63,325 nucleotides of DNA, from NCBI GenBank assembly GCA_027604185.1, contig JADGKB010000083.1, positions 1-63,325 of the forward strand, written 5' to 3'. Of this stretch, positions 407-62,583 are shown in pieces. Within the stretch, counting starts at the first letter, position 1, and each line of letters opens with the position of its first letter. Below the pieces are notes generated by a model that ran no database searches, had not been told where the DNA came from, and saw only the letters and a program-made list of their open reading frames with translations. The stretch is from Boothiomyces macroporosus. Taxonomy: Eukaryota > Chytridiomycota > Chytridiomycetes > Rhizophydiales > Terramycetaceae. The translations under genes and the position numbers were made by a program.

Positions 407-914
407 ATGAACGATTTGGCGTTTCGGAGATTACTCGATGGAATGGTAATATTCAAAAATACCAAATCTGAAGCGCTCGCATGTCTCCAAGTAACATTCC
501 CTAACGCAGACCATGTCACTAGTTCTAACCAATTTAAAGAATCATCCAGATGATCCAAAGTACAAGACAATTAAAGCATCAGGAAAAGTAATTAAAAAAG
601 TACTTGATTGTACGGGAGGCGAGGATTTATTGATTGCTTGTGGTGCTTTAAAATCAGTAGTAGAATTCCAACCTTCCTATAAATTCACCTTACATGACGA
701 AAATCAACTTGAAATTATAAATGAATATATTGCCAGGGTAGCGGAATCAATCGATTACTCTAAGCGGAACGATGTAAAGAAAGAAGAAGAAGAACGGAAA
801 CAAAAGGTGTTGAGAGATATCGAGAATGACAGGCTTGAACGACTGGAGAGAATGCAAAGGGAAAGAGAAAGACTTGCCCTCCATAAAGAATCTCAAAGGA
901 ATGAATTGCAATAA
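407..914 (+). CDS. PUB (PNGase/UBA/UBX) domain protein
   Basis: Two exons joined by a 19-nt intron (491-509) give 162 aa. The start at 407 opens a frame without stops into the intron, and splicing yields ...ALACLQTMSLVLTNL. Residues about 15-105 look like a PUB domain: a helix (LVLTNLKNHPDDPKYKTIK), then a conserved hydrophobic core (LLIACG) and the pattern YKFTLHDEN. PUB domains of the PNGase/UBXN6 group bind the C-terminus of the AAA ATPase p97/Cdc48, so a role in p97-linked protein quality control is inferred. The last 50 residues are a charged helix rich in R and E. No UBX or transglutaminase domain is present, so this is not a complete PNGase. The last 66 bp of the CDS lie in the 81-bp repeat that recurs beyond the CRN gene. 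Confidence 0.75.
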
Positions 915-929
915 ACCATATTTATTTTC
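849..929 (+). repeat. 81-bp direct repeat, left copy
   Basis: This is base-for-base identical to 3097-3177. It contains the last 66 bp of the PUB-domain CDS including its stop, an AATAAA-type signal for the plus strand, and a TTTATT that serves the minus strand. It forms the left border of the segment carrying the CRN gene. Confidence 0.95.
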
Positions 930-3096
930 CAGAGTAAATCAACTAATGAGAGCAAGGATATCGGAAAATACCCTTTCGTAACAATACCATCCCATGAGAC
1001 ATCCTTTTTGTTTATTCAGTCCCATTTAATTTCCCTGCGAGTCTTCAATTCCATTGTAAATCACACAAATATCATTCTAAATTGTTGAGGTGGTTCCGAG
1101 ACCACAAGGATACTCCCTCGCATAATCGACAAATCATTCCTATTCCATCATATGAATTTGTTCAATATTGAGCTAAAAGCGATGATCCTAATATTGGATA
1201 TCATATTCAAAAAAGTAAACTTTTTTCCAAGATGCCAAAACGATTCCTCAACATTGAATATTCTGGAATCAGAACTGAAGTCGATGTATCTGAAGCCGAA
1301 AGACTTGCTCAAGTGCAGCTGGCTGTTAAAGAAGCTCTTTCTATTGATGGCGGTTATGGTCTCATTCAGCTGTACACCAAGCAAGACCAACACATCACAG
1401 ACTTGAACGACATCCCTAAAGAATACTACAAGATGCTAAAGGACGGCGGTCTCTATCTCGTCATCCGCACCACACCACCACCATCAAGACTGCCAGTCAG
1501 AGAATCCAGCAAGAATGACCTGCTTGACATAGATTCTACCTCAATCTTATCAGCAGAGGAGGATCGTCCTCGCAAAAAACAGCGGGTCGAGATCAGTGAC
1601 TTGACAACCCAGCTAAAGTCGTTTGCAAACCTTCAGATGGTTGATGGGTGCATTCAGTCTCAAGACCAAGAGCTACTACCATATCCGCAAGACAAAATCA
1701 AAAAACTATACGTCAGAAAGTGCTATCAAGATGTCTTTGATTTGCTCTTGGAACACATTAATCGTGGCATGAAATCTTTTGCAATATCTGGGACACCAGG
1801 CATCGGAAAGTCTCTATTCTTCATCTACATCCTGTATCGCTTGATTAAGGACTTTCATACGAAAACTCTGTCTTTGAAGCCAAACAGAATTGTATATCAA
1901 ATGGGCTCTGGCTACAAATGCTTTCACTTGAATGAGCGAATCGTCACAGAAATTTCAAAATTGGAAGGTGCCCTTTGGGTAAGGAAGCAAGACACGTTCT
2001 ACGTTATTGATGGACGAACGTCTGAACCACTAAGTTCGTCTTGTCTTGTATTGTTCATTTCATCTCCCAGGTCGGAATGGTACAAGGAATTCGTGAAGCA
2101 GAAGATGGCCAAGGAGTGGTGCTTTCCTGTTTGGACGTTAAACGAGTTGCAGGATTGTCATCGCTATTGCTATCCTGGTTTATCCATCGAAATACTTAAT
2201 GAGAGGCATCGTATCTGTGGTGGTGTTGCTCGCTTTGTGTTTCACAAGGATTATTCTATTCCAGTGCCAAAAATAATGCAAAGTGCTTTGAATGACGTTA
2301 ATGCAGTTCGCGGGGTCAAATATGTCGGAGAGATAACATCCATTTTTCCAGCATCACATACGCTACTCCAAATACTGGTAGGAGATGATGAGTATGGAAA
2401 TGCTTACCAGTTTACTGGCTTGGATGTGGCATCAAAGTATGTCGGGGAACAATTGTGGATACGTCATGCCGCTCAAATGATGACCAACTTGAAAGAAATG
2501 TTCGGCGGTAGTCCCAACGAGATTTCAAGACATTTGTTTGAGATATATGGACATATGGTTTTTTCTGTTGGTGGACAAACTCTCAAATGCAGATGCTTGG
2601 AAAGTGAAATAGTTACCGAAATTACGTTAGATCCTCTTAATAGCCAACGAATTACATTTGGAAAAGATACCATCCCTACTGCTGCAGACCTTATAGGCAA
2701 GTACTATGAACCAACGGATGATGATACTTTTCCAGCAATTGATTCTCTGAGTCCTCAGGGAATGTTCCAATTCACAGTTGCAGCGGAACATCCAATTCGC
2801 GGCGTTCAAATTTTAGAGCGGTTGTGTAAACTATACAGCGAACCGAAACTCTACTTTGTAGTTCCTCCAAATCGGTTTGAAAAATTCAAGAAGCAGCGTT
2901 TCAAAACAAAGGGAAGTGATGACAAAACCGAAATTCTTGGATTGAAACAATACGTTTTAGAGCTACCTGTAAAATAAAAAAGCTCTTGAGGGTTTCTGAC
3001 CTTGACATCAAAATTTTGAATTACTCTGTTCTGTCAAGTCATTCACAGGACTCAAAACTCTTACTTGGAGACTATTCTCTATGCTGAGTGTTTTTA
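930..3096. mobile_element. Candidate inserted segment carrying the CRN gene, bounded by 81-bp direct repeats
   Basis: The 2,167-bp segment lies between two perfect 81-bp copies of a piece that joins the tail of the PUB gene to the tail of the first 7TM gene. Removing the segment and one repeat leaves a normal convergent gene pair with overlapping 3' ends, so insertion (or duplication with insertion) is the simplest history. No terminal inverted repeat, transposase or reverse transcriptase is visible, so the mechanism is unknown. The only gene inside is the intronless CRN gene at 1232-2977. Calling it mobile is inference; the repeat itself is seen directly. Confidence 0.45.
1232..2977 (+). CDS. 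Crinkler (CRN) family protein with P-loop NTPase and nuclease-like C-terminus
   Basis: Single exon, 581 aa. The first 85 residues resemble the ubiquitin-like header of CRN proteins and are followed by a low-complexity proline linker. The segment LYVRKCYQDVF precedes a Walker A motif, GTPGIGKS, at about residues 187-194, the arrangement typical of CRN proteins. The C-terminus has FPAID, FQFTVAAEHPI and LYFVVPPNRF, matching the PD-(D/E)XK-like nuclease end of the NTPase-nuclease CRN class. No secretion signal is visible. CRN proteins are known from oomycetes, Batrachochytrium, Rozella and other eukaryotes, as host-directed effectors or as factors in conflict between genomes; the role here is not established. 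The gene lacks the tiny introns common in its neighbours and lies inside the repeat-bounded segment, suggesting recent arrival. An AATAAA lies at the stop codon. Confidence 0.85.
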   Translation: MPKRFLNIEYSGIRTEVDVSEAERLAQVQLAVKEALSIDGGYGLIQLYTKQDQHITDLNDIPKEYYKMLKDGGLYLVIRTTPPPSRLPVRESSKNDLLDIDSTSILSAEEDRPRKKQRVEISDLTTQLKSFANLQMVDGCIQSQDQELLPYPQDKIKKLYVRKCYQDVFDLLLEHINRGMKSFAISGTPGIGKSLFFIYILYRLIKDFHTKTLSLKPNRIVYQMGSGYKCFHLNERIVTEISKLEGALWVRKQDTFYVIDGRTSEPLSSSCLVLFISSPRSEWYKEFVKQKMAKEWCFPVWTLNELQDCHRYCYPGLSIEILNERHRICGGVARFVFHKDYSIPVPKIMQSALNDVNAVRGVKYVGEITSIFPASHTLLQILVGDDEYGNAYQFTGLDVASKYVGEQLWIRHAAQMMTNLKEMFGGSPNEISRHLFEIYGHMVFSVGGQTLKCRCLESEIVTEITLDPLNSQRITFGKDTIPTAADLIGKYYEPTDDDTFPAIDSLSPQGMFQFTVAAEHPIRGVQILERLCKLYSEPKLYFVVPPNRFEKFKKQRFKTKGSDDKTEILGLKQYVLELPVK

Positions 3097-3177
3097 AGAA
3101 TGCAAAGGGAAAGAGAAAGACTTGCCCTCCATAAAGAATCTCAAAGGAATGAATTGCAATAAACCATATTTATTTTC
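3097..3177 (+). repeat. 81-bp direct repeat, right copy
   Basis: Identical to 849-929. Here it supplies the stop codon (minus strand, 3170-3172) and the 3' UTR of the first 7TM family gene. The PUB-derived coding part is a non-functional fragment in this copy. Confidence 0.95.
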
Positions 3178-4758
3178 GATGGTCTTTTGACACAAAAGAT
3201 TTCGCAGCAGAAGTGCTATCGTCGGCAACGCTCTGTGATTGTTTAGTAGAGATAGTTGATCCTTTAAACTTTGAAACAATCTTCATGGATTCGTTAATAC
3301 GCGCAGCAAGAGCGACGTGAATCATCATAAATAGTACTAGAAATCCCGTGCAGTCTTGATACGCAATGTCACTCTGCAGCCATGAAGTATTTCCTTGGAC
3401 CAAACTTGCGAATATATACCCACCAACAGCAAATAATTGTCCAACAAACAGATGAGGAAGATACTTGTCAGCTGCAAGCAGTGTATTTACCTTTTGCGAC
3501 GCAGAAGTGTTTTGCAAGAAAGCGGTAAGAAACTTCATCGAAATAAGTGTTGGAATGGAGCAGTTCCAGACAAATAAAAAAATTACCCACGCATATTGAT
3601 AACCCTCCCAATTATACAGGAAATTCACAAAGGAAGAAGTTGTTCCAGCACCATTAAAGTAGTAACAGAAATAATTAGCACCATTAGTGCCAATATGGAC
3701 TAATGCAAGAAAGACATAAATTACATACAACAATATCCTGTAGTTAATCCAACGTACTTGTTCTTGTTGAATAATCCCGTGTTACAGATAATTCCAGACA
3801 CAATTACAGAGAGAAAGGTTCCGAGATTAAAGAAAATCTCCCTTATTTCTGCAAAGATTGCCATGCTTTCATAGTCCTTGAAAATCGTGAGCCAAAATAT
3901 CATTTTCATAATCAACCAGATCACCATCAGCAATTGACTGGTAATTATCAAGTAATTCATAAATCTAAACGCCTTCTTTACTTTTCGCAAGGTAGTGATA
4001 GTGATGTAGGGGATGTACAGCCCAACAAGTATTGAAAGGGTAAAGGCAACTGCAGAAATATAGTCAAATGGCATATCAAATTGCGGAACAAGGAATATAC
4101 CCGGTGTAAATTGCCACCAATCGTAAAACATGCTTGCTGTATCAAAGGTTTTCATCACAACTGATATGTTTCCAAGGTTAGCGTCTTGCAATGACACTGC
4201 TTGACCAGTAATAGAAATTGCACTAAGAAGAGTCCCATTACAGTTTGTTCCTCCGTAATAACTAAAGTTTCCGGCAGTTCCACATTTGAAATGGCCATCA
4301 TAGCAAACAAAATCATTCACTTTTAGAAATATTGCCTTGTATCCCAACAGGGAAGTTGTGTCATTAAAGTTGCTGGCAAAAAGTTGGCAATATTCATGCC
4401 CATTTGCAGATATTGGAACAACTGTCTCTATATCACTCATAGTATCAAACCACGAGGTACTTCCGCTGTCATACGGAAAAGATGCTTGTAAATCCAACGA
4501 ACCAGTACATGCAGTTCCCGGAATAGGCACATAACAGTTATCTGTATCACCTACAGTAAAGTCTTGAAAGTGGAACCGAAAGAATGATGGCCAGGTTTCA
4601 TTTAGCGTGGGATCATACGCGTAAGGATCAGAAACGTTGAAAACGTAAATGGTGTCTGGAGACCCAGCGCATTTCTTTGAAAAGAACTGATTCTCTACCA
4701 ACAAAGTTGCTCCTATATTCCTGGCAATGGTCAATACTAAGATTGTTACAATAGTCAT
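3170..4758 (-). CDS. Receptor-like 7TM family protein, copy A
   Basis: Two exons with a 20-nt intron (3738-3757) give 522 aa. A signal peptide precedes the family motif LLVENQFF. About 200 extracellular residues follow, with conserved cysteines and the signatures NETWPSFFRFHF and GDTDNCYVPI plus N-glycosylation sites. Next come hydrophobic segments that I count as seven: three before the intron and four after it. The last helix is followed by a basic Ser/Thr-rich tail. Topology suggests a receptor or channel at the plasma membrane, but I recognise no named family. The stop codon lies in the right 81-bp repeat. Three more copies follow in the same direction and a fifth sits at 46072-47678 with the intron at the same place. 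Start chosen at 4758 because it opens the hydrophobic signal sequence. Confidence 0.8.
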
Positions 4759-5059
4759 AGTAAAGTGAACTTTGAGATGACGTAGATATTTAATATAAAC
4801 TACAAAAATAGGCAATTCAAATCCAATTTACTTTAAACTATCGTTTTTCCCTTAGAATTATTAGATTAGGATATCGCGGTAAAGATATCCCGGGTATCAT
4901 TGAGTATAATCCGATTGCAAAAAGTGCCCAGAGAATGAAACTTGAGATTCATGCATTCTGAATCAAATATTCAAATTCATTCTGGTAGCTCAACACACTA
5001 ATGAATATTTTTATCTGGCCTATTAAAATTTTCGATCAATATTTATTCCAAGGTAGACT
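4759..5059. other. Intergenic region between 7TM copies A and B
   Basis: About 300 bp holding the presumed promoter of copy A and the 3' end of copy B. No further gene or repeat is visible. Confidence 0.5.
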
Positions 5060-6616
5060 TCATTGCGATGTAATATTTGAAGATTTGTCAATGGTGGTGC
5101 CTCGGGATTTTTTGGATGTAAATGTGCTTTGTTTGAACTTGGACACGATCCTCATTGACTCATTTATTCTTGCAGCGATAGAAAGATGCGACATCATAAA
5201 GAAAACGTGGAATCCAGTAGCATCTTGAAAAGCAATATCACTCCTAAGTAGAGTAGTGTAATTCCTAATGGAGCTGTTGATGACATATCCCCCAATTGCA
5301 ATAATCTGCCCTGCAAATAGGTATGGCAGATATTTGTCTGCAGAGACTAACGTTTTGACTTTTTCAGAGTTGTTGGCGCCAACTGCAAATGCTGCGACGA
5401 ATTTCAGTGATATTAATAGAGGCACAAAGCAATTCCAAGCAAATAGGAATATGATCCATAGAAATTGGAATTTGTTCATCTTGGTCAAAAACTGTACAAT
5501 TGGAGTAACTAATCCGCTCCCGTTGAAATAGTAAGCAAAGTAATCTGCACCCGTTAGAATGATATGAATCACAGTAACAGAAGTAAATATAACATAGAAA
5601 GATGTTCTAATGTGAGAGATACGTACTTGTTATTGTTGAATAGGCCTGCGTTACAAATTATCCCTGTAGCTATTGTTGATGCATATGTTCCAAGACTAAA
5701 GAATATTTCCCTAACTTCGGCGAAAATGGCCATCGCTTCATAGTCAGGAAAGATTATCAACCAAAAAGCCATTTTCAAGATACTCCAAATAACAACCAAA
5801 ACCTGGCTGACGATTATGACATAGTTCATTGGACGGATATTCTTTTTATCTCTTCTAATAGCTTGGATTGTCATAAATGGCACAGGAATTCCAATCAAAA
5901 TTGCCATCACGAATACCACCACAGTAATGTAATCGAAAGCCATATCAAATTGCGGAACCAAAGCTATTGAAGGCGTATATTGCCACCAATCGTAATTAAG
6001 TGTAGCATCTGTAAATTGCTTGAAAACCACGGAAACGTTACCCACAATCAAGTCACTAACATTGGAAACAGTGCGACATATGAATTTGAGTTGCTGCAGT
6101 TCCGGAACAGTTTCCAAGAGCATAAAAAGAGAATACACCACCCATAGTACATTTGAAATGGTCATCGTAGCAAATGTTATCATTTGCTCGGAGAGTGATA
6201 GTCTTGAAACCAAGTAAGACTCTCGAATCAGTAAAGTTGTTTGACGTCAACTGACAGTATGAAATTCCATTTGCTCCTTTTGAAATAACTGAATCGAAAT
6301 CACTTAATGTGTCAAACCACGAGGTACTGCCACTGCTGTAAGGAAATGACATTGACGGACTAAGTGATGATGTACAAGCAATTCCATTCAGAGGCACAAA
6401 ACAGTCGTCTGTATCATCTACACTATAATCCGCGAAATGAAATCGAAAAAATGATGGCCAAGTTTCATTTAATGTAGGATCATACGCAAAAGGGTCAGAA
6501 ATGTCAAAGGTGTAAATAGTATCTGGCGCACCTTTACAATTCTTTGCAAAATATTGATTTTCCACCAAGTAGTCTGCCCACACAAGTTGAGATAAAATGA
6601 ATGCTATCGTAATCAT
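5060..6616 (-). CDS. Receptor-like 7TM family protein, copy B (frame interruption)
   Basis: Same layout as copy A: signal peptide ending before DYLVENQYF, cysteine-containing ectodomain, and seven predicted membrane segments, with the shared intron at 5609-5628. Unlike the other copies the ectodomain changes frame near 6056-6077. Either a copy-specific 22-nt intron (GTCGCA...GTTAG) is removed there, giving 504 aa, or the gene carries a frameshift. The unspliced length matches the sisters better than the spliced length, which favours a frameshift; the weak GTC donor also argues against an intron. It could therefore be an early pseudogene. The ATG at 6616 is preferred because it starts the signal peptide. 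Confidence 0.7.
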
Positions 6617-9942: not shown

Positions 9943-11235
9943 TTATTCAGGTTTAGCAAATGAAGCAGGAATATCCAGCGCTATGTCTATATTAGTTTCA
10001 ATATTTGGTTGCCCATACCAGAACATTGTCCACTGTGCTGATATATGAAGGTGGCCGTCCGAGCGGTCAAAGTACCTAGGATTAACCACATCCTACCATT
10101 TATTAACGGGGTTATCCACTCTAGATCTCCAGCACATGTTTACATAATTGGTTTTCAGGGACTTCCATAAGATATCCGCTACACCAGACCCTTGACTGTC
10201 AGGGTCAACAGCAAATTTATCCAAATATATGACACCTTTTTCATTTGTCACTATAATAGCACCGCTGTAGTCTCCAGCAATCATTATTGAATGCCAAACG
10301 TTTTCCAATCTTTTCCAATACTCTGGCCTAAGCTTCTTGCCAAAGGACTTTTCTAATAGTGCTTGTAGCTTTTTCTTGTCTATTTCATTAAACTTGATTT
10401 GTTTAATTGAAACGCCTTTTCTAAATAGTGTTGGGGAGTTCAGATTTTCGAAAGAGTGTATAGGCTTGTCTGTGATAAGGTTTGAAATCAACTGACTCGA
10501 AGAATTCGCAGATGCAAGAATTGCAGATGATGTTGGAGGCAAGATATCGAGAATGGAACTAATGGTCAGAATATCTTCTATTATCGGCTGCCCTGCTTCT
10601 AATGATGGTAAATCGCTATTCACCAGTGTTGGTAATTCTTCGGAAAGATTAATCAATCCGTGGTGTTTTTTATCAAAAATCACACCTCCATATTTGTTGA
10701 TTAATATAAACTTCCTGGGAGTAGGTAATTCCTGATCTTGAACTATTGCTCTGCACAAATCTGTTATAGTTGAAGATCGCAGCTTCACTTTGGAATCAGC
10801 AATAACTAATGGAACTAAAATTGGAATTTTGCCCGTTGCGAGTGAATCTTTGATTGGATCCAGAGATATTTCCAGTCCTGATTTAAAATCCTCCAGCTCA
10901 TCCATGGACTTGCGGTGGTATATATGATTGTAGAGAGTCTTTCCATATCCGTTATTTTGATCAATAGCTTCGCACAAGTGAAAGGCGGTCTCCAATTCAT
11001 CCCAATGAGCTTTTCGTTTATGTGTATCAACCCTAGTGTTGCACAGCACGATTGGGTTAACTCCCAGCTTTTGAATTTGCACCAAATTTCGTCCCAAAGA
11101 CTCAATTTCACTCCTAGATAGTCCCGGCGAAACCGACACAAGTCCCGTCTTGAATGGATTCCTGAGGAAAGCTTGCGCTTCTCTTTTCGTAGGGTAAGAG
11201 CCTAAAATATTGAATATTAGCTCGCGAGAAAACAT
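9943..11235 (-). CDS. ARG2: N-acetylglutamate synthase, mitochondrial
   Basis: Two exons joined by a 21-nt intron give 423 aa. It makes N-acetylglutamate from glutamate and acetyl-CoA, the first step of fungal arginine synthesis. The N-terminal two thirds follow the fungal pattern of a degenerate amino-acid-kinase-like domain (LVSVSPGLSRSEIESLGRNL near the start, PRKFILINKYGG in the middle). The C-terminus is the GNAT-like NAT domain: YLDKFAVDPDSQGSGVADILW, then after the intron YFDRSDGHLHI and QWTMFWYG, which are hallmark blocks of this enzyme. The start ATG opens an amphipathic segment (MFSRELIFNILGSY) compatible with mitochondrial import. Its presence shows that the organism makes arginine, which argues against an extremely reduced parasite. 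Confidence 0.92.
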
Positions 11236-11833: not shown

Positions 11834-12595
11834 ATGTAACTCAGCTTTTAACGACAGGGCAAACCTTTCAACCCAAAAACGTCTTGCCGCAGCAGTATTG
11901 AAATGTGGAAAACGTAAGGTCTGGTTAGACCCTAACGAAATTACTGAAATCTCCAATGCAAACTCTCGTATTTACACCTTTAACCTCAGGCAAAAACATT
12001 CGCAAACTTGCAAAGGACGGTCTTATCATCAGAAAGCCAGAAGCTTCCCAATCCCGTTTCAGAGTTCGTGAAATGGCTGCTGCCAAGCGCCTTGGACGTC
12101 ACACCGGTACTGGTAAACGCCGTGGTACTGCAGATGCCCGTATGCCAACTCAAGTTTTGTGGATGCGCCGTATGCGTGTTCTCCGTCGTTTATTGAGAAA
12201 GTACCGTGAATCAGGAAAAATCGATAAGCACTTGTACGTATTTAAAATTGCAGATTGAATCATGGAAATTCGAAAAGGATGGATGTGCACCAATTGCAAT
12301 TTATTTGACATTCAGTTTCTAACAGCTAGGTATCACGAACTTTATATGAAATCTAAGGGTAACGTCTTCAAAAACAAGAGAGTTCTTATGGAATACATTC
12401 ACAAGGCAAAGGCTGAACAAGCCCGTGCTAAACTTTTGGCGTAATTTGTCTATTAACAATAGTGACCAAGCTGAAGCTCACCGTGCCAAGAACCGTGCTA
12501 CCCGTGAACGTCGTGCTGTTAGAATCGCTGCTAAGCGTGATGCTTTACTCGGCATTGAAACCCCAGCTGCTGAACCTGTTAAGGCCCAAAAGTAA
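11834..12595 (+). CDS. RPL19: 60S ribosomal protein eL19
   Basis: Five exons give 199 aa that match eL19 throughout: [104 protein letters not shown]. Introns: 22 nt (11836-11857), 22 nt (11968-11989), 96 nt (12234-12329) and 22 nt (12441-12462). The first intron splits the start codon: exon 1 contributes only A and T (11834-11835) and exon 2 supplies G (11858), so ATG exists only in spliced mRNA. The third intron is the only long one found in the window. Start chosen because [10 protein letters not shown] matches the family N-terminus exactly. Confidence 0.97.
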
Positions 12596-12700: not shown

Positions 12701-13654
12701 ATGTCTTCAGCAAAACTTGGCAAGGACAAGAGGTAGAATACAACTAAATTTTGAAAAACTCTGGTCTCAAGCCCAAACCTAGACGAAAAGAGACCGCATC
12801 CTAGGAGAGTTGACACAACTAAAAAGCGCGATGAAGATAACATGCTTTGGTTTTACTTGACGAGCGAAATCTTGGAGGATTTGGACAGGTTGCAAGACCC
12901 AGGAGCAGAAATATTGTACTTGTCGCTCATTTAGATATTTTTCAGAGATATTTGATTTGCAGAGTTTCAAAGAAGATATACAGCTGGGTGTAAAGCTGTC
13001 AACTTTACATTCCGTCTATGCTCACGGAAAAGCCCATGGCTTCACAAAAGAACAAATCAGCTTATTCTTTACAATTCAAAAATTTACGCTTGATAAATGG
13101 ATTGAAACAGGGTTTAAGGATGAGAAAAAATGTCTTGAGGATTATCAAAACTTGGTGTTTAAGCAATTCAGGGCGGATATGGAAAATAATCACGAATCAG
13201 GCTTGACTTTTGATTCATGCAAAGTTATACTAGAATACGGAATCTTGACGTTAAACTTTGCTAATTTAGGTTGATTCAACATTTTCATGTAATCAAATAC
13301 CTTTTCACTGTGGAGCAACAAATTGAGCAAAAATTAAAATCACGATGGCTTGAATTGCCGCCATATTATCCGCCATTGAGTGAGGCAAGAACTGCCGAAA
13401 GCGTTGCGGAGGAAGAAAGGCTGGCGCAACTTGAGCGAGAAAAGGAGGATACATTCAATTCAAATCTCGGTAGGCTATTTCTTAGATTAGATATATTCGA
13501 GGCCTTAGATCCCGTTGAAATCAAAGAAATTGCTTATCAGACTGTAACAGGACTGGTGGATACTATCCAAGAAGAATGTGAAAAGCTACTCTCCGAGCAA
13601 CGACAAAAGACACTTGAAAGGAACGCAAAGTTTCCAAAAGAATTTGCTCAGTAA
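12701..13654 (+). CDS. CFAP119: CFAP119-like (CCDC189) ciliary protein
   Basis: Four exons give 297 aa. The core, AEILYFSEIFDLQSFKEDIQLG...GFTKEQISLFF followed by HFHVIKYLFT, matches my recollection of the CFAP119/CCDC189 family of axonemal proteins; the C-terminus is a charged coiled coil ending KFPKEFAQ. The last two introns are 19 and 20 nt with AG ends. The first (12733-12753) is 21 nt and ends TTTG; it gives DKRKTLVSSPNLDEKRP. An alternative 39-nt intron ending in AG is also in frame and would give 291 aa. It is convergent with SPAG6, another flagellar gene, 95 bp away. The assignment rests on motif resemblance rather than a computed alignment. Confidence 0.75.
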
Positions 13655-13749
13655 TGTTAATAAATTATTGAAAACAATTTATTCTCTTACGCAGTAATAT
13701 TTCACATTTTCTCAAGCAGGGATACTCTGGGAGATTGGTTTTTGACCTT

Positions 13750-48710: not shown

Positions 48711-50346
48711 TTATTTCGCCATACTAAAGAAATGCTTGTTGGTCATATGAACTTGACGTTCAATCTCGGAACAGTATTTTTCAGGAACTCCCATACTGCG
48801 CAATTCCTAGTGTTAATTATTATAACTTGAATCTTGCGGTTTTTAATAAGTTCAATCTTGTGCTTCTTTTCAGCTCTCTCCTGGCCAAGCTTGACTCCTT
48901 CCAAAAAGAACTCGTCTCTGCTCTTTTGTTTTGCCAATTCCTTTTCCTTGATTTGGGCTTTAACTTCCAACGCATAAGCTCTATTCTTTTGGGCTCTGAT
49001 TTCCTCTTCTTGCTTAATGCGAGCTTCGATTTCTTTTTGCTGTTGAAGTGAAGCCAAAAATTCTTCTTTAAGTTTGTGAGATTCAATAGCAATAGCTTTT
49101 TCTCTGGCTTGCTGCTGTCTTAGACGTTCTTCGCGAAGCTCTTTTTCTTGTTGCAATTGCTTTTCAGCAGCCTCCTTTTCTTTACGTCTCCATTCCCTTT
49201 CATAAGCTTCATAGGCCCGTTGAGCGCGTAATGCATCTTGCTGTGCTTGCTTATCAGACATCTACCATTAGATTTGCATACTTTTTCTTGGGCTGCTCTC
49301 AATCTAGCCAGTTCTTGCTCTCTTTCTGCTTTCTTTTGAGCTTGAATACGATCGTTTTCTAAATCTCTCTTTTCTTTTTCCAAAATGTATTGCAAGACTT
49401 TACGGTCTTCTTCTTCTTCCAAAAGCTTTTCCTTCTTTTTCAATTCAATAGATTCTTGATTTGCAGAAGTTACTCCTTGCATTAGTTTTCTTTGGGCTTG
49501 TATTTTGGCTGCTTTTTCCCTCTTTTCTTGTTCAGCATTTTCTGCGATTGTCTTTAGAATTTGCTTTGTTTCCTGGTCCTTTCTTTCTTGCTCCAACAGC
49601 GCCGCTTCTCTACGTTCCTCGATTTGTTGTCTGATTTTGGCAGCCCCTCTTCGCAACTCTTCCATTCGCTTTCTCTCTTTTTCTTCCAATTTTGCCAATT
49701 CATTGACTCTTTCTCTTTCCATAATTGCATCTAATCTCAAATCTTCTTCCTTTCGCTGTTGCTGTATGTATTTCTGAGTTAGAAAAAATCACCTTTTGCT
49801 CTACTTGATTGTCTCTGATAGACACGCATTTCGCATACAGCATCAATTCATTAAGATGTTTAATTTCATCTTCTTGCTCTTCGATTTGCATTTGGGCTTT
49901 TGCTAATAGATGGTTCGCTTTTTCCAGTGTCTCCCTATCTAAATCTGACAGTTTGGCGTTCTTTGCGCGCATAACATCATACTTTTCCATGGCGAGCTAT
50001 CGTTAATATAAATCTACCTTTCTATTAGCAGCGATGGCTAATTGCTCGTTTTTATGGCCATTCAAAAGCTTCTCACGCTCTTGTATTTCAGATGGTGTAA
50101 GGAATTTCGCCGCATTCTATATTACCACTCGCTTACTCTGATTTTATCCAATTCATCAGCGCCTATCAATATCGCACGCTTATTCTTCTTTAATTCAGCT
50201 TCATTGTTTAGATGAGGGCGAAGTTTGCGGATGTTGTCTCTCGTAATCACCGTAATTGGTTTCTATCATATTAGCCAAATTAATACTTCAAGCTTTATCG
50301 CATTATCGGATTTTTGCTTCTATAGTTAAGCACTCATTACTATCAT
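48711..50346 (-). CDS. CFAP45: CFAP45 (CCDC19), axonemal microtubule inner protein
   Basis: Eight exons give 496 aa, nearly all charged helix. Family blocks: ITVITRDNIRKL near the start, LNELMLYAKCVSIRDNQ, EYREWRRKEKE-type text (YEREWRRKEKEAAEKQ) and GVPEKYCSEIERQ at the C-terminus. CFAP45 lies inside doublet microtubules of motile cilia. Exon 1 is only six bases (ATG ATA, 50346-50341), followed by introns of 21 and 24 nt; the remaining introns are 19-21 nt. The gene is divergent from the GH18 gene with 63 bp between starts. Confidence 0.94.
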
Positions 50347-50409: not shown

Positions 50410-51653
50410 ATGCAATCGCTGCAGGAAAATTGGAGTACAGTTTACTAATACCAGATTCAGGAAAGAAGCTGATTGTGTACCATACGAATTGGGCCTGCTA
50501 TGGGAGGAACTTTCAAGTCAAGGACCTGCCAGTCAACTATATCAGCGACATCAATTATTCATTCCTGGATTTAAAGCCGAATGCACAAGGGTTTTATGTT
50601 CCTGCGTTTTCGGACCCTTGGTCTGATGTCGATAAACGCTATGGCGATCCCAAAGAGTCTGTTCAACCACTGGATCACCAACAACCGGCTAATCCTGGTG
50701 AATACTTTGGCAATCTTGGGCAGTTTATGAAATTAAAGAGAGCGGGATATAAATTCAACTTGGGTTTAAGCATTGGTGGCTGGAGTTTCTCTACACACTT
50801 TTCTGAAGCAGTTGCAACTCCAGAAAGCAGACTGGCTTTTGTCAACGCGTGTATGGAAATTTTAAATAGATTTCCTGGGTTGATTAGTAGATTGGATTTT
50901 GACTGGGAGCATATTAGTCCTCCTGGTGCCAACTATGGAAAGGAAGGAAATTCTACATCGCCCAACGATGGTAATAGCTTATTTAGATTAGGACCAAATT
51001 TTGGGATGCTGTTGGAATTGCTAAGAAATCATCTTGATCATTCGCCCTTCAGCAATGTAACCATAACTGCATGCGTAACTGGTGACCCTAATGCCATGAG
51101 CGCATTACCCATAAGTGTTATGGGAAGAGTTTTGGAATCTATAAACATCATGTCTTACGATATGGCCTGTTCCTCGTACGGACAATGTTTGGCTGGACAT
51201 CACACTAACCTGTATTCTACTCATTACAGCCAAATGTCTATTGACCAAGCAGTAAAGAAATATATATCCCTGGGGATTCCAAGAGAAAAGATTGTAATAG
51301 GTGCCGCATTGTACTCCAGAGGATTTGCTAATACAGATGGTCTTGGCAAACCCTCGTTTGGAATAGTAGATGACAGGTCTTGGGAGGACGGTGTTTGCGA
51401 TTACAAAACGCTTCCAAGGCCAGGTGCGGCAGAATATTATGATGAAGCAGCCCAAGCACACTACTCATATGATCCTAATAGGAGAATCTTGAATTCTTAT
51501 GATTCTGTTAGATCAATTAAAGCAAAATGTGATTATGTATGGAAAGAAGGACTGAAGGGTGTGATCGTTTGGGAATCTGCTGGAGATTATCCCATTTCAG
51601 ACCCAAGATCATTACTTGCAACTCTGTATCATGGACTGGTCAATAAACCTTAG
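50410..51653 (+). CDS. GH18 chitinase-like protein
   Basis: Two exons with a 20-nt intron (50435-50454) give 407 aa. The TIM-barrel blocks are KKLIVYHTNWACYGRNF, INYSFLDL, NLGLSIGGWSFSTHF, LDFDWEH, INIMSYDM and KGVIVWESAGDYP. The usual catalytic string DGxDxDxE reads SRLDFDWE, so the last three acidic residues are kept but the first aspartate is serine. The model begins MQSLQENWNSGKK with no signal peptide; a frame upstream lacks an ATG. It may be cytosolic, or the signal exon was missed. Related to cell-wall remodelling or chitin degradation by family, but activity may be reduced. Confidence 0.85.
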
Positions 51654-51866: not shown

Positions 51867-54338
51867 ATGAATGAGCGTCTCGTAGACTTTAGAGATTTGC
51901 GATTTAATCACCGAACGCTTTCATTCATTGATAAAATAGCAGACTTTATATCAAAAGAGATCACCACCGAAGCAGAAGAATCAAAGGAAGACCAAACACC
52001 ACAGCTTCCACCAAAAATAAATCAAACAGATTTGTATACACATACAGTACCAATACCACTAGCAAAACCAGTGTTGGTAATCTCATCCCCGAAAGCGGCA
52101 ATATTGTTAGGCGTAGAGCCATCGACGTTGGAGTTCTCTCAAAACCTGGACCTGCTTAACGCTGCAGAATTTCAAACAAATTCGTCTCATTTTGCATTCA
52201 ACTATGGAGGATATCAAAACGGAATATATAATATCTTGGGAGATGGACGAACCATGACCGTTGGCGAGGTAGAAAACTCTTCAAAGTTTGTATTACAGTA
52301 TAAAGGGATCGGGCCAACTCCATATGCGCAAAACCAAGATGGATTGATGAAGTTAACCACTTGCTTGTATGAGTTTTTCATATCCGAAACTTTGGCGCAA
52401 TTGAATATTCCAACTAGTAGAAGTTTAACAGTTATTGGATCATCTTCGGTTTGTTACCGAGGCACACAGGAAAAAATGTACACCACGGGAATTCTATCTA
52501 AATATGCTCGAACTTGGATTAGATTTGGGACATTAGAATATCTGTATTTTAAAGGGGACACGACTGGTTTGAAAACTCTGGTTGATTATGTTATACAAGA
52601 ATTTTATCCGGATTGTATTGATTTTGAATTTGGGGAATCCGTTGTCACAAACAAATTGATATCGGGAGATTTTTTTGACAAGAATCAAGATATTTTGGAT
52701 GGAGGGATCTTGGCACCAGAAAAGGATATTGCGGATAAACTCGATACTGCTGGCAATCCAATAACTATTCGTTTGAATAGATATGGGTTACTATTCCGAC
52801 GAATCATAGAGAAAACTGCTGTATTAGTGGCAAATTGGCAAGCAGTAGGTTTCGTTCATGGATGTTTAAATACTGAAAACTTTTCTGTAATTGGAGATAC
52901 AATTCATTTTGAATGCAGTGTAATTCCGATTTAAAGTAGGGGTTTATGGATTCCTACGATCCCGAATGGACGCCAAACAAAAAAGATACCAAAGGAAGGT
53001 ATTCCTTTGAAAAGCAGCCAGAAATGGCCAAATGGGCTTTATCAAGATTGGGTCAAACTTTGGCAATGCTAGTGGGAGATACATATACGTCTTCGCCTGT
53101 TAGACCCTATACTAGAGGTTCAAACGATCCACCTAGACAAGAAAACAGACCAGCTACTACGCCATCTATACCCACTCAGAGGAAACTACCGTTAGGGTTT
53201 TTGTTTGATGCTTCAAAATCTGAAAACATACTGAGAGAACTATTGAAAGAATACGACTCCAAGTTTTTGAATACCTATGGAAAGTTAATGTGTAATGTAG
53301 GTTGAGAATTAACATAGAAACTGGGAATAAAGACTTTTGAACACGCTGACTATGACCAAATAATCAATCCGCTGCTTGAAATGTTGGCTGCAACAGGTGC
53401 GGATTATACCGCTTTCTTTAGATTCATAAGCACCTTTGGGTGTAGTGACGCGAAATATTCCCAAGAGATATCATACCTTCCAGAGGGTGTACATAGTGAA
53501 GAGGCTCTGTTGAACTCTGAGCCTGTAAATACATTAGGTTTACTACTGAAATCATTGGCAACACTTCGAAAGGAAGATGCAGATTATGTGGCAGCAGAGA
53601 ATGAACGAATTAACCGCGAAAGCTTTGTTGTGCCAACATCCCCGACCAAAGAAACCAACACTTCTCAACTTGCAGCGATTGCCGAGGATGAAACCATGGA
53701 TGAAGCAGATCAGGCCGCTACATCTCCGCAAATACCCCAAATCCAAGTTCCCACGCCACAGATGGTTGAACCTCTGCCATTGCCAACACTAGATGAAGTT
53801 GCAAGCCAGTGGAAATACTGGGCACACATGTATCGCACAAGATTGATTTCACAATTACCAAACGAAAGAAAGTCTGGACAAGCATTAATAGAAGAAGATC
53901 AAATTAGGCAAAGGAAATTAAAGACAGTCAATCCTCGCTACATAATGAGAGGTTACATGTTGAGAGATATGATGAATTCAGTAAACAAAATCATGCCCCC
54001 TTTTGTGTTTAATAGGAGGGCATCTGTTCAATCAAAGTAAAAGATGTTAACATAGACAATCTAATAAAGGAAAGAGAAGGGGAAAGAAAGATGAAGACGT
54101 GGTAGAAAAGATTGAGTTCCCACAAACGAATGTTCAAACCAGTTCATTTAAAGATGTGCAAAAACTACTGAAGATAGTTGTGAACGATATTTATGGCGAC
54201 GTTTCCGAATCAAAAACAGGCTGGAAAACGGATGAAGATAAAGTATATGCACAAAAATGGGGTGAGCTTCCCTCCACGGTAAGTTTCATTTTATTTCAGG
54301 AAAATTCCAACTTGAAATTTAATAATGAAGGTGAATAA
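51867..54338 (+). CDS. SELENOO: Divergent selenoprotein-O-like (SelO/YdiU) pseudokinase-fold protein
   Basis: Five exons give 796 aa. SelO proteins have a kinase fold and transfer AMP to proteins, usually in mitochondria. Retained blocks include GDGRTMTVGEV, LQYKGIGPTPYAQNQDG, HGCLNTENFSV and FMDSYDPEWTPN. Several key positions differ from the family: HGxxNTDN has glutamate for the catalytic aspartate, TIDYGP reads TIHFEC with loss of the metal-binding aspartate, and DGRAVLRSS reads DGLMKLTTC. The C-terminal Cys/Sec-Ser-Ser motif is absent. The last intron (21 nt, in frame) is optional. Introns are 19-21 nt. It is probably a non-catalytic or re-purposed member. Start at 51867 is chosen because MNERLVDFRDLRFNH fits the family N-terminus. 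Confidence 0.85.
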
Positions 54339-55068: not shown

Positions 55069-55947
55069 TCAGTCATCTCCAGCTTTACCAGCAGTAGCAG
55101 GTCTAGTAGAAAGTTTTGTACCTTTTGATCCACTCTTGCTGGATTTCTTTTGGTAGTAGTTTGCAATTTCAGCTGATACACAGCTTTGGACTGATACAAT
55201 AGGATAAATTACTGAAGCGAGATTCCAGTAAGCGTTAGAGTAAAAGGTTGCTTGGTCTGCAGAATACATTTCTGTTCCAGAGATATACATTAACGCGGTG
55301 GAGATGGTCCAAACCAAAGGTAGCAGGATCGTCAATTCAGCTCTTGTCAATTTGTTACCACGTAATAGAACCTGGATAACTCTAAAGAGGTAGTAGCAAT
55401 CAAAATACAGCAGATTGACCCAAATTTCAGCAGAAATGCAATTGGACGCGATATTCCAAATATTAGCCGGGGCATTAGTCTAGATTAAACATAGAATACC
55501 ATAAATGAAGGAATTACACTGGCTACATCCAAGCAAAAGCAAACTGCCAAAATAATCTCGTCGATATAGTAGTTTTCCTTTACTACTGACTTTTTCCGAG
55601 TGTAAAAGGCCAAATTGGAGCAAAAGTAGATAAAGAATTGGAGGATAGAATAGGCTTTGTACTAGAGTCAGAAGCAGGATACAATAGGGTCTGCGGCAGT
55701 CCAGTCATTATTGAGCCACCCAATTTGAAGGTAATCAACTAGAAGAAAGATCTTTATGACATTTACAGCACATGCAATTGCAACGAAATACCACAAGTAA
55801 GCAAATTTGAAACGTAAAACCGTCTCGAATATCAAATTACCCAAAAAAATAGCACCAAATATAACTAGAGTTACTGAATGAAATACCTGACGCTAACCAA
55901 GTAGCGTTGTCAGAATCTGTCCAAGGACCTGATCTTATTTCCAACAT
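55069..55947 (-). CDS. Uncharacterised seven-TM membrane protein
   Basis: Four exons with introns of 22, 21 and 20 nt give 271 aa. Seven hydrophobic segments are visible: SVIFGAIFLGNLIFETV, YFVAIACAVNVIKIFLLV, LQFFIYFCSNLAFY, EIILAVCFCLDVASV, IWVNLLYFDCYYLF, LTILLPLVWTISTAL and NLASVIYPIVSV. A short glycosylatable N-terminus and basic C-terminal tail fit a GPCR-like topology. I recognise no named family, and it is not related to copies A-E. A decayed second copy lies upstream at about 56945-57450. Confidence 0.75.
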
Positions 55948-57801: not shown

Positions 57802-60616
57802 ATGACTTCATTCCCAAACGCTGGTTTTGCTTTGATCAAATCAATCATTTCAGGAGATTCAGTAATTCTAAGAGGAAAGGCAACCAATGGTCCGCCTCCA
57901 GAATTGATCTTGTCATTAAGCAACATTAATGCCCCAAGATTAGGCAATAAATCTGTTGAAGAAGAAGTACCCACTACTAATGTAGGCATACGCTTATGAA
58001 TCTAGGGAATACCTGCGCAATCTGTTAGTTGGAAAGCAAGTAAAGTACAAGCTGGAATATGCTTCTCCAAATAGGCAATTTGGATCTCTGGAAATCCAAC
58101 ACCCAATTGATGGGGAAACTGATATCGCAAGAATATTGGCTAAAAATGGATTTGCTAAAGTCAAGCAAGCAGATGGAAAGCGCATTCCATCCGAGTACTA
58201 TTTATATCTTACTTAGGGAACAGGAATACCTGTTGGGGTTGGAAGAGTATGCCAAAGCAAAAAGACTAGGAATCTGGTCTGACGAGCCTTACACATTGGT
58301 AAGCACTACATGTAACTTAGCGACAAATTGCTTACAACTTTGAAAGGGATCCTCGTCAGTTGCTCGATAAATACAAAAATGCCCCTATCGATGGTAACCA
58401 ATAGTTAAATTAGCGATCGTTGAACAAGTACGGGATGGCTCTACTCTTCGGGTTGTTGCATACATTGACTCTGTTCATCAATATTTAACCGTTCAAATTT
58501 CAGGAATCAAAGCCCCTGTTTATCGCAAGGACATCCCTGGTGTTCCTGATTTAATTGAGCCATTAGCAGAAGAAGCTAAATATTTCACAGAAGTTCGTCT
58601 CTTGCAACGAAGTGTAAAGATTCTTTTGGAATCTTATTCTGGACAAGGACAAGGGTTGGCATTCTTTGCTACCATATTGCACCCTGCTGGAAATATTGCT
58701 GAATTGTTGTTATCTGAAGGCTACGCTAAAATATTGGACTGGAATTTGGCCTCTGTTACTAATCCAGAAAAATACAAGGCATGTGAGGCAGCTGCGAAAG
58801 CTAAACAACTCAGATTATGGAAAGGCTTTGTTAAAACTGCTACAAATACAAATAACTTTCAGGCAGTGGTCACGAAAATTATTGGACCTGATCTTATCAA
58901 TGTCGAAGTTGGAGGAAAAGAACGTAAAATTGGATTTTCAAGTATCCGTGGACCAAAGAGACAAAAGAATGAACAAGACTTTGACATTGGCTATTATCTT
59001 GATGCTGTAGAGTACCTTCGTGCAAGACTCATTGGACAAAAAGTTACAGTTAAAATTGATTATGTGAAGCCTGCCGAAGGAGAATATGAAAAGAGAGATT
59101 GCGCAACTGTATTAAAAGGCGAAGTTAATATTGCAGAAATGTTGGTAACTAGGGGTTACGCGTCTGTAATTAAACACAAAAAGGATGACCACAATAGGTC
59201 CTCTGCGTACGACAAGCTATTGGAAGCTGAAGAAAAGGCGATTGCTGCTTCAAAAGGAATTCATTCAACAAAGGATGCTCCAGTCCATCGAATTATTGAT
59301 GCTTCTGAAAATGCAGCCAAAGCTAAAAACTACCTTGCCCAATTGCAACGTGGGGGTAAATTAAAGTGTGTAGTTGAATATGTAGCATCTGGTTCAAGAT
59401 TTAGAATATACGTGCCATCACAAAATCTTCGATTAACCCTTGTGCTTTCTGGAATTAGAACCCCAAAAGCCGGAAAAGCAGAAAATCAAAAGTCTGAACC
59501 ATATGGCAATGAAGCTGCTGCATTTGCAAACAGCAGATTATTCCAAAGGGATGTAGAAGTAGCTATTGAAGGAGTTGATAAAGTTGGTGGGTTCATTGGT
59601 ACATTGTTTGTTCCTGCGCACAGCGGGCCGTCCGCAAACTATGCTCAATTGATCCTTGAGCAAGGTTTGGCCACTGTTCACGAATATTCAGCTTCTCAAT
59701 CTCCTTTTGCTAATCAATTGATGGATGCAGAATCTTCAGCAAAGGCTGCAAGAAAGAACATCTGGACAGACTATGATCCTGCATCCGAAGCTGCAGAGGA
59801 AGTTTCAACATTGCAAGTGACTGAAGCAAAGATCACTGAGGTTATGGTAACTGAAGTATCTTCTACCGGCAACTTCTTTGTGCAGCTTAGTGGCCCAGGT
59901 ATATTAATCTTAACGAATTAGAACTGAAAAAATTGGAAAGCTTAATGACAGAGTTTGCACACTATCACAGCGGTGCTGGCCAGCAACTAATTGCGCCATT
60001 TACCCCAAAGGTGGGAGAGTACTGTAGTGCTCAATTCACTGCAGACAAGCAATGGTACAGAGCTAGAGTGCGTAAAATCAACGGAGCAAACTCTTACAAC
60101 ATTTGGTACATTGATTATGGAAACTCTGAAACTGTTCCTGGATCTAGATTAAGACCTCTCCCAAGCCAATTCTCTGTTACTTTGTTAAAGCCTCAAGCTG
60201 TTGAAGCGCAGCTGGCCTACATCGACTTTCCAACTGAAGAATCTGATTACCTTCAAGATGCAGTTTCTGAATTTTGCTCTATTATCAGTGGCCAAACTTT
60301 GTTTGCAAAGATAATTGCGGTCAACAATACCCCAACTGGTCCAGTCCAATCGGTGTTGTTGTACGTCAAGAAACCAGCTGGTTCTAAAATAACTTCAGTC
60401 AACCAGCAGTTGATTGAATGTAGCTTGGCGTATGTATCCAAAGTACACTCAAAGCGCTATTTGAGGGAGCAAAGAGAAAAGTTGAAGAACAAGGCAGCAT
60501 TGCTATCCAAAACTGCACCAACTGATTTGGACTTGCTAATGGACGCTCAAGAATTAGCAAAGAAATCAAGATCGAATATCTGGAGATATGGCGATTTCAC
60601 CGAGGACGATGATTGA
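57802..60616 (+). CDS. SND1: Tudor-SN / SND1, staphylococcal-nuclease and Tudor domain protein
   Basis: Six exons give 902 aa. Four SNase-like domains are followed by a Tudor domain with a split fifth SNase. Marks include ISGDSVILRGKATNGPPPELILSLSNI, REYLRNLLVGKQVKYKLEY, AIVEQVRDGSTLRVV, WYRARVRKINGANSYNIWYIDYGNSETV and the closing NIWRYGDFTEDDD. It is a broadly conserved RNA-binding protein of stress granules, RNA processing and small-RNA-linked decay. Introns are 19, 22, 22, 20 and 23 nt. The start ATG at 57802 precedes the first conserved block directly. Confidence 0.95.
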
Positions 60617-60740
60617 TAATAAACGACAATCGTATTAATGTGTTCATTTGGTTCCCAGCCAATAGCGTGACTCCAACGCCAAAAATTTGAAACATTTCCC
60701 AAAAACCAAAAATGCCTGATGTAATACAAAACTAACAAAG

Positions 60741-61843
60741 ATGAACAAACCAATAAACTATCCCTTTTCGGATACAGAGGATTCAGATGACGTATTAGAG
60801 GATGATCATGATTCTGACGAAAAGGAAGAAGTAACAAAGCTCGAACAGTTCAACGAACAACCAGTATTAAGTGATTATTTAAAAAAGAAAGGAGAGCGCA
60901 GCAGAGTAAGTTTTTTTAATCCTAGTCATGGAAACGCAGATGGTTCGTGCTTCGTCCAACCAGGCTTTGCTACTACCAGAATGATAAAGTACGATATTCT
61001 TAACCAAGGAATACGAAATACTGAATATTATACCTACCAACAAGATTCACTCTGTTGCACCAATTGAATTGAAGAAGAAGCAGTTTGTTTTTGGAATTGT
61101 AACCAGGGAGAGGGTGTTTTATTTGCAAGCAGTAGATCAAGTGCAGATGGAGAAGTGGATTAGTCATATAAAACAATTTATAGAGCAGCCTTTATCCAGG
61201 AACCCTTCGCATCACGATGAAGGACAGATTAGTAGAAAGCCATCCACTACAACTCAGGTGTCAGTTCTCACAGTCGCTTCATCTGCATCTGTTTCTCAAC
61301 CATCTCCAATTGCTGTAGAAGAGCCTGTAGGAATCCCAATAGTAAAGAAGAATGAATCTCATGTAAAATTTGTAGAAAAATTGCCCCCAGTAGTTGAAAT
61401 TAAAGTTACTAGTCCTCTATCAAAATCATGGGGATCCAATCCTAGTGTAGATTCATCGGATGAAGAGTGTCCAATGTCTCCGACGTCTCCAGAAACCGAT
61501 ACAATCGCCCGTCAAGGATATTTGCTAAAATTGAAGAATATTGGAGGAGTAAAGAGCTGGAAAAAGAGATGGTTTGTACTGCGCAAAGGCAAGCTGCTGT
61601 ATTATAAAGATCAACAAGTAATATCTGCTAATATAGGAATATGAAGTCCGTAGAATATTGCCGCTGACAACTGTAATTGATATATTGGACATAGACCCTA
61701 TTCTAAGTAAGCACAAAGAAGATCAGCATTGTATAAAACTAGTCCTGGCCAAGCGCAGTTGGATATTATGTGCAGACTCTGTGGAAGACCAGAGCAGATG
61801 GCTGGAAGCGTTGCGCAAAGCCCATGAAGAATGCAAAACTTGA
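60741..61843 (+). CDS. Tandem PH-domain protein
   Basis: Four exons with introns of 20, 20 and 19 nt give 347 aa. PH domain 1 spans about residues 45-150 (LKKKGERSRSWKRRWFVLRPTRLCYY ... MEKWISHI), and PH domain 2 spans about 240-345 (QGYLLKLKNIGGVKSWKKRWFVLRKGKLLYYK ... DQSRWLEALRKAH); both have the terminal tryptophan. A Ser/Pro-rich linker joins them and the N-terminus is acidic. It presumably binds phosphoinositides at a membrane; the partner is unknown. Layout recalls pleckstrin/TAPP-type adaptors or yeast-like tandem PH proteins. Confidence 0.88.
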
Positions 61844-61884
61844 TTATTTTTAAATATTTTTATCCTTTCATTTTTCCTTTTTAA

Positions 61885-62583
61885 ATGAATTCAGTTTTTC
61901 AAAATCAAGACAGCACCTGCTCCCAGCCTTTGAAATCCATATCCTTGACCCATGTAGAATACGACCCAAACGACATATTGGGCAAGCCGCTGGCGTACAT
62001 TTCCCTAATACCAATTGGATTAATAGTATCGTTTGTTACACTGATTATAATGAAGAGAAACCTGGTAGTCATGTACTTTTTTGCTGGACAGCTGCTGAAT
62101 GAATTACTGAATTACTTTTTAAAGCAATATTTCAAGCAACCCCGGTATTTGGTGATTTACCTAGACCATCGCAGAAAATGAAGGGATATGGAATGCCCTC
62201 TTCGCACTCGCAGTTTATTTGGTTTTTCAGTGTGTTTGGGATTTTGTATACAGTAAACCAGTTGCAGTTTAGATTCAAAGCAATGAAGCCCTTTTTAATA
62301 TTGGGGTTGCTTACTGCTGCATCGCTAGTGTCCTATTCTAGGTTGGTGTTGCTAATTCAGAGTTCATTTACTGTACCACACTTATGAACAGGTTCTCATT
62401 GGTGGTCTTATCGGTTGTTTCACGGGGTCGGTATGGTATCTATGTACCGGCATTTTAGATTTTATATCTCCGCTAATTGTCAATTCTTACATTGGGCATT
62501 TCTTCTTGATAAGAGACACCCGCCATATTGGTAATATAATGGTGTTTGATCATATGGTCCTAAAGAAATCAAAGAAGGAATAA
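61885..62583 (+). CDS. CAX4: Dolichyl-diphosphate phosphatase
   Basis: Three exons with introns of 20 and 19 nt give 219 aa. The PAP2 active-site blocks are KQPRPSQK, GYGMPSSHSQF and SYSRVHLLYHTYEQVLIGG, with four to five membrane helices. The enzyme recycles dolichyl diphosphate in the ER lumen for N-glycosylation. All catalytic motifs appear intact. Confidence 0.94.

Follow-up and report, generated by a model that had tools for sequence, protein, structure and literature searches.

Genes and introns of the window

We studied a stretch of 63,325 bp with 38% GC (contig JADGKB010000083.1, hereafter the window) from the 15.2 Mb, 216-contig assembly of the chytrid Boothiomyces macroporosus, a free-living saprotroph of the family Terramycetaceae in the Rhizophydiales (Chytridiomycota), most of whose genes are interrupted by segments of about 20 nucleotides (nt). 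With a probability of roughly 0.94 these micro-introns would be ordinary U2-type spliceosomal introns, shrunk to about 20 nt across the nuclear genome and still numerous. A gene model in which every intron had to end in AG (AG-only model) placed 29 genes and 85 introns in the window, 83 of them 18-24 nt long and the other two 66 and 180 nt; the donors were GTA in 78, GTT in four, GTG in two and GTC in one. When TG acceptors and GC donors were allowed, the 29 genes held 91 introns, every one of 16-24 nt. Retention of 84 of these 91 would cause a frameshift or a stop; the remaining seven are called only from the splice motif.

These figures bear out an earlier description of the window (the sequence-only reading), which had proposed 29 genes with about 88 introns, nearly all of 17-24 nt and starting with GTA, rarely GTC, GTG or GTT, in a flagellated fungus; the last label holds since the window encodes the axoneme protein SPAG6/PF16, assigned by homology. 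Its two longer introns, presumably the 66- and 180-nt ones of the AG-only model, turned out to be artefacts of micro-introns ending in TG (see below), and its observation that summed exon lengths are multiples of three is true and weak as evidence, because this holds by construction in any such gene model. The total of 29 genes is itself too low, a TspO gene being absent from the model. An Rfam search of the window gave no match, and ARAGORN, run with the bacterial code, found no transfer RNA (tRNA) gene in it. Genes and introns are listed below with the coordinates of the gene model that allows TG acceptors and GC donors, unless homology is noted.

407..914, + strand: gene with one micro-intron, 491-509
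3170..4758, - strand: membrane-protein gene (by eye; open reading frame of the first exon without Pfam match); micro-intron 3738-3757
5060..6123, - strand: gene related to the preceding one; micro-intron 5607-5626
9943..11235, - strand: NAT-domain (N-acetylglutamate synthase type) gene; micro-intron 10076-10096
11834..12595, + strand: gene resembling ribosomal protein eL19 (by eye); introns 11836-11857, 11968-11989 and 12441-12462; weak candidates 12238-12253 (16 nt) and 12296-12315 (GC-AG)
12701..13654, + strand: gene with a 21-nt GT-TG intron, 12733-12753, and introns 12916-12934, 13250-13269 and 13470-13490
13712..15477, - strand: SPAG6/PF16 gene; introns 15141-15159 (first), 14809-14828, 14329-14349 and 13829-13848
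15586..18830, - strand: exocyst SEC3 gene with 14 micro-introns: 18583-18601, 18450-18469, 18335-18353, 18000-18019, 17855-17873, 17603-17622, 17472-17492 (GT-TG), 17296-17315, 17164-17183, 16648-16667, 16417-16436, 16310-16332, 15949-15970 and 15808-15828
19028..19864, + strand: gene; micro-introns 19304-19322 and 19654-19673
19877..20363, - strand: gene; micro-intron 20176-20194
20392..21351, - strand: NDT80-like gene (NDT80 family by Pfam); candidate intron 21251-21271, called from its motif since its length is divisible by three and reading stays open through it
22489..23461, - strand: second NDT80-like gene (by eye); micro-introns 23440-23459 and 22842-22861
24171..25192, - strand: replication factor C (RFC) subunit gene; micro-introns 25056-25075, 24738-24756 and 24567-24586
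26260..30029, - strand: coiled-coil-like gene (by eye); introns 29851-29869, 27346-27364, 27046-27066, 26867-26886 (GT-TG) and 26685-26703
30790..38016, + strand: large gene; introns 31015-31033, 32436-32456, 33021-33038, 33482-33501, 33963-33982, 35557-35575, 35728-35748, 36308-36330, 36568-36588, 36841-36860 and 36933-36952
38099..41735, + strand: P4-ATPase flippase gene; introns 38303-38323, 38629-38651, 38839-38860, 39178-39198, 40445-40464, 41466-41485 and 41696-41716
42817..43498, + strand: cyclophilin gene; 19-nt intron 43274-43292
46102..47678, + strand: membrane-protein gene (by eye); micro-intron 47052-47071
48131..48656, - strand: gene; micro-intron 48401-48419
48711..50346, - strand: coiled-coil gene (CFAP45-like by eye); introns 50320-50340, 50263-50286, 50117-50136, 49997-50017, 49774-49792, 49262-49281 and 48807-48826
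50410..51653, + strand: GH18 (chitinase family) gene; micro-intron 50435-50454; 50971-50991 uncertain, reading being open through it
51867..54338, + strand: gene; micro-introns 52920-52939, 53297-53317, 54037-54055 and 54279-54299
54355-54765, - strand: TspO/MBR family gene (PF03073), not in the gene model
55069..55947, - strand: gene; micro-introns 55865-55886, 55662-55682 and 55480-55499
57802..60616, + strand: staphylococcal-nuclease-domain gene (SND1-like by eye); introns 57967-57985, 58195-58216, 58299-58320, 58394-58413 and 59899-59921
60712..61843, + strand: PH-domain-like gene (by eye); micro-introns 60721-60740, 60906-60925, 60989-61008 and 61618-61636

Detection of the introns without prior assumptions on length

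The gene finder took its codon statistics from long open reading frames, re-learned them from its own gene models and required GT..AG ends. In a neutral run over the window and 200 kb of contig C1, with an equal prior for all intron lengths from 12 to 120 nt and no use of the branch motif, it placed 94 introns: 63 of 17-24 nt, three shorter and 28 longer. Eight control end pairs, given to the same program on the same sequence, yielded 4-14 introns at 17-24 nt and 58-70 at 25-120 nt, so the excess at 17-24 nt was confined to GT-AG among the nine end pairs, and the 28 longer GT-AG introns are within noise. A TRAY branch motif was correctly placed in 46 of the 63 motif-blind micro-introns versus 1,352 of 14,283 (9.5%) GT..AG pairs of the same size. 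When the test was repeated on 12 small loci and a 40-kb part of contig C4, with codon tables trained partly on C4 and not on the 12 loci, 23 of 35 introns fell at 17-24 nt; four controls gave 1-6.

Counting a fixed pattern led to a similar picture. The consensus GTA-N8-9-TAAY-N2-3-AG occurs 43 times on the two strands of the window, as compared with 3.3 ± 1.8 (maximum 9) in 200 dinucleotide shuffles; 39 of these matches lie in genes in the sense orientation, one is antisense and three are intergenic. All but one of the 39 sense matches coincide with introns of the model, which itself scores such motifs. An earlier, badly spaced pattern had given four matches where 0.7 were expected.

Genome-wide extent and layout

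A refined model, with donor, branch and length preferences learned from the 63 micro-introns of the neutral run, was applied to 303 kb and returned 161 genes, 131 of them intron-bearing, with 468 introns, 463 of which were 15-25 nt long; the size range of the sequence-only reading thus extends beyond the window. The median length of the 463 was 20 nt and the mean 20.25; lengths of 19, 20 and 21 nt together accounted for 400, and 19 nt for 101. The branch A fell on base 14 in 176 introns, base 15 in 210 and base 16 in 50, and was followed by five bases in 216 and by six in 193. The donor was GTA in 408; position +5 was T in 42% and G in 17%, and the commonest start was GTAATT. The layout is GTA(A/T)-TT, a branch site YTRAY with its A mostly at base 14-15, and five or six more bases ending in YAG; the GC content is 30% in introns and 40% in coding sequence. 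Of the 62 introns at the 12 loci not used for training, 61 measured 19-24 nt.

Intron density was about 2.0 per kb of coding sequence, or about 2.9 introns per gene. Across the 15.2 Mb another consensus pattern, which fits eight of the 463 micro-introns, matched 423 times, its reversed form 57 times. Scaling by sampled length gives about 23,000 introns; scaling from the 423 matches gives about 21,000, a rough figure since eight are few. By extrapolation the genome holds roughly 20,000 micro-introns, and, judged from these counts, they are a genome-wide set of narrow length (below about 30 nt) and not a local effect.

Candidate TG acceptors, GC donors and long introns

The AG-only model contained five introns above 28 nt (45, 66, 122, 123 and 180 nt), of which those of 66, 123 and 180 nt dissolve into TG-ending micro-introns. 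The two in the window are artefacts because an AG acceptor had been required: once TG was allowed, a GT-TG intron of 21 nt took the place of the 66-nt SEC3 intron, and at 12592-12771 the spurious intron of 180 nt gave way to a gene boundary and the gene 12701..13654, which has its own 21-nt GT-TG intron. With TG and GC allowed over 349 kb, the end pairs of 565 micro-introns were GT-AG in 541, GT-TG in 14, GC-AG in nine and GC-TG in one. One intron of Prp18 (see below) also has an alternative GC donor.

TG seems to be the acceptor in about 2% of introns, some ten of the 565 micro-introns by our estimate, and GC donors are about as common. We regard it as unlikely that the TG acceptors are spurious and stem from wrongly placed boundaries or from A-to-T base errors. 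In favor of this view, one of the 14 GT-TG candidates is an exon by eye (in a mitochondrial glutamyl-tRNA synthetase-like gene on C1) and about three more are weak, other alternative acceptors also yield 2-11 candidates, a neutral TG-only run showed no excess (nine at 17-24 nt, within the controls), and neither the model deposited for this species nor that of Boothiomyces JEL0866 matches ours at the TG junction of SEC3. Against it, the gain in score among 15 alternative acceptors was highest for TG (122, the next being 70), and four TG introns are supported by homology: the UBC13, SEC23 and POLG proteins align without gaps at the TG junction to solved structures, and SEC3 does so to the Terramyces model. 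The exon restored inside the former 66-nt SEC3 intron is moreover retained in Kappamyces and Batrachochytrium.

Three of 568 introns were still longer than 28 nt (107, 57 and 278 nt). The 57-nt intron is the former 45-nt one with its end shifted to TG, and its true length is probably about 45 nt; the 278-nt intron, at a single locus and with a GC start, was taken as a model error. The 107-nt intron lies in a uL30-like gene (by eye; C1:49769-50662), where the AG-only model has a 122-nt intron (49892-50013); with GC donors it starts 15 bases later, and the GTAAG start of the 122-nt form looks better. The latter carries TGATGA and CTGA motifs resembling those of box C/D small nucleolar RNAs (snoRNAs) and a short GGCGG/CCGTC closing stem; an Rfam search of this intron gave no match.

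Junctions compared with homologous proteins and deposited models

Residues 6-318 of the 320 in the spliced RFC subunit could be aligned with chain 8tw7_2 of a solved structure, and no gap fell at the three junctions. The P4-ATPase was gap-free at the first four of its seven junctions when aligned with solved DRS2, and at all seven when aligned with deposited Globomyces and Batrachochytrium proteins. The SPAG6 alignment supports three of four junctions.

Deposited gene models set many of the same junctions. The P4-ATPase protein of this contig (HK103_007103) agrees at six of seven, one only loosely, and its model runs on from the P4-ATPase into the cyclophilin gene to end inside the 19-nt cyclophilin intron; the SEC3 model of this contig agrees at seven of 14. 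In relatives, SEC3 junctions agree at 12 of 14 in Terramyces and 11 of 14 in Boothiomyces JEL0866, which hints at, but does not prove, the same micro-intron state in relatives. The Terramyces RFC model agrees at two of three junctions and lacks 23 residues exactly at a junction whose intron is 19 nt here, residues that chain 8tw7_2 has. In the models of this species, agreement was 0 of 3 for 19-nt introns and 13 of 18 for longer ones. Since the 19-nt introns all fail and Terramyces RFC has this gap, these few cases suggest that the annotation program used a minimum intron near 20 nt; on the other side, five longer introns fail too, and some models of relatives are right where the intron is 19 nt here. 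Deposited models mis-join several junctions; all five deposited family proteins compared have at least one place each that differs from our model and, if such disagreement is general, conserved parts of proteins are missing from the public proteomes of this family.

Splicing machinery

Seven of the eight spliceosomal parts sought were found: U1, U2 and U6 small nuclear RNAs (snRNAs), SF1, U2AF65, Slu7 and Prp18. There are two U2 genes with the standard branch-binding GUAGUA, one U6 gene with an ACAGAGA box, and one U1 gene with the 5' end AUACUUACCUG, an ordinary recognition sequence; no compensatory change for the absent +5 G was seen in U1 or U6. SF1, Slu7 and Prp18 scored above their cut-offs. 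The splicing genes themselves contain micro-introns: three in SF1, five in U2AF65, three in Slu7 and two in Prp18. Slu7 and Prp18 are dispensable at short distances between branch and 3' splice site; their predicted loss is ruled out here, both being present. The sequence-only reading had named the U2, SF1 and U2AF components for inspection; of these, U2, SF1 and the large U2AF subunit, the last below its cut-off, were found and the small U2AF subunit was not (see below for both). Its view that the closeness of branch and acceptor is hard to square with standard spliceosome geometry is not supported, because the 15-nt introns of Stentor coeruleus, which has introns of 15-16 nt, are tighter, with the branch at base 10 and five bases after it (PMC9505925), and the U1, U2 and U6 recognition sequences are ordinary.

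Interpretation

In the reading we prefer, U2-type splicing of shrunken introns, the major spliceosome would excise the micro-introns by its usual chemistry. Each intron would be recognized as one compact unit, in which the spliceosome reads the 5' splice site and the branch site in near-immediate succession; a pyrimidine tract would not fit behind the branch, and the first suitable G-ending site immediately downstream would serve as the 3' splice site. The minimum of about 18-19 nt may arise from fitting the U1/U6 and U2 pairings plus the lariat loop, and deletion pressure may hold nearly all introns at that limit, whereas a few longer ones, such as the 122-nt uL30-like intron with its snoRNA-like motifs, may carry other functions. 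We put at even odds the wider proposition that a free-living, culturable fungus keeps about 20,000 introns at the physical minimum without reduction of its spliceosome, with the 3' AG rule relaxed (UG in about 2%) and the 5' +5 G lost. With the branch five or six bases away, position relative to the branch would define the 3' splice site, so that UG could be accepted; loss of the +5 G would be in keeping with a transfer from U1 to U6 in which this pair is no longer needed.

Two other explanations of the segments were weighed, and both are very improbable. Assembly or sequencing errors could break reading frames that short GT..AG segments then merely patch; some GT..AG pair can patch any break, and the 66- and 180-nt introns of the AG-only model were such patches. 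Errors, however, would not favor GT-AG when eight further end pairs are available, show a branch motif with constant spacing or fall 39 sense to 1 antisense, and deposited models of three species set many of these junctions too. Removal by a non-spliceosomal route (translational bypassing, internal DNA excision as in ciliates, or a tRNA-type splicing endonuclease) might be invoked for segments so short that a spliceosome seems oversized; we give it just as little credence, since GT..AG ends with a YTRAY branch are the signature of spliceosomal introns, and U1, U2, U6, SF1, U2AF65, Slu7 and Prp18 are all present.

Several results count against spliceosomal micro-introns as modeled here. The refined figures for length and branch position are partly circular, because both properties were in the model, and the codon tables of the control runs had been re-learned from GT-AG gene models. 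The DRS2 alignment has a two-residue gap right at the fifth P4-ATPase junction. Model boundaries may be wrong, as in the first SPAG6 intron, where three extra residues imply a donor nine bases upstream and make a 28-nt intron (15141-15168) likelier than the 19-nt one. In two deposited proteins of this species 8 of 21 junctions differ from our model. U1 scored 68.8 bits, just below the Rfam cut-off of 69.5, and the large subunit U2AF65 scored 230.7 in an intron-blind search with an NCBIfam cut-off of 310.3, appearing complete by eye once spliced. The small subunit U2AF35 was not found in the seven of 12 CCCH places that were read; introns can split its domain.

Comparison with other genomes with tiny introns

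At about 20 nt the micro-introns approach the lower end of intron sizes known from any organism. In the heterotrich Stentor the introns are likewise tiny, GT-AG and of near-uniform length, the branch A is followed by five bases, the U1, U2 and U6 pairing sequences are canonical, and GUAAUU is the commonest intron start, as in Boothiomyces; its introns are 5 nt shorter and lack a strong branch consensus, and it is a ciliate, whereas Boothiomyces is a fungus with a strong branch motif (PMC9505925). Chlorarachniophyte nucleomorphs retain many introns of nearly the same size class (18-21 nt); they are remnants of endosymbiont nuclei whose genomes are extremely reduced, unlike the 15.2 Mb fungal nuclear assembly (PMC10245619). 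Mikrocytid introns (16-17 nt) are likewise tiny, uniform and conserved in layout, in an intracellular parasite with 224 introns and a reduced spliceosome, (PMC10245619), whereas Boothiomyces has about 20,000 by extrapolation, and the search for eight spliceosomal parts missed only U2AF35. Paramecium has genome-wide short introns at 2.7 per gene, close to the 2.9 here, which are longer (median 24-25 nt) and broader in range (PMC12862383). Among fungi, Batrachochytrium has 4.7 exons per gene (PMC5364385), two Chytridiomycota average 3.93 introns per kb as compared with about 2.0 here, and the short introns of Cryptococcus average 63 bp as compared with about 20 nt (PMC8476143).

A search of titles, abstracts and passages, in a collection that lacked most subscription papers, turned up neither chytrid intron lengths nor a description of tiny introns in any chytrid, Boothiomyces and Terramyces included. 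Boothiomyces would be a further genome of the tiny-intron kind, and its TG acceptors a variant that may be new. Tiny introns in the papers covered here belong to ciliates, nucleomorphs and intracellular parasites; the same state in a free-living saprotrophic fungus with ordinary snRNA pairing sequences and about 20,000 introns would uncouple the shrinking of introns from the reduction of the spliceosome, and it would offer a tractable system in which to study the minimum size of spliceosomal introns. Should UG 3' splice sites be confirmed, they would bear directly on 3' site choice by the spliceosome.

Other observations

Positions 1232-2977 of the window encode an intronless protein of 581 amino acids with a P-loop by eye, Crinkler-type-like and without Pfam match. 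A repeated family of membrane-protein-like genes occupies 3170-9922 and 46063-47678, with the stretch PSFFRFHF in common; one tested member had no Pfam match. The two NDT80-like genes of the window adjoin each other (20392-23461), and a third (by eye) lies at C1:164416-165957. On contigs C2, C10, C18, C20 and C36, matches are repeated within a contig at a constant distance of about 42-54 kb, marking large direct duplications that may be assembly artefacts.

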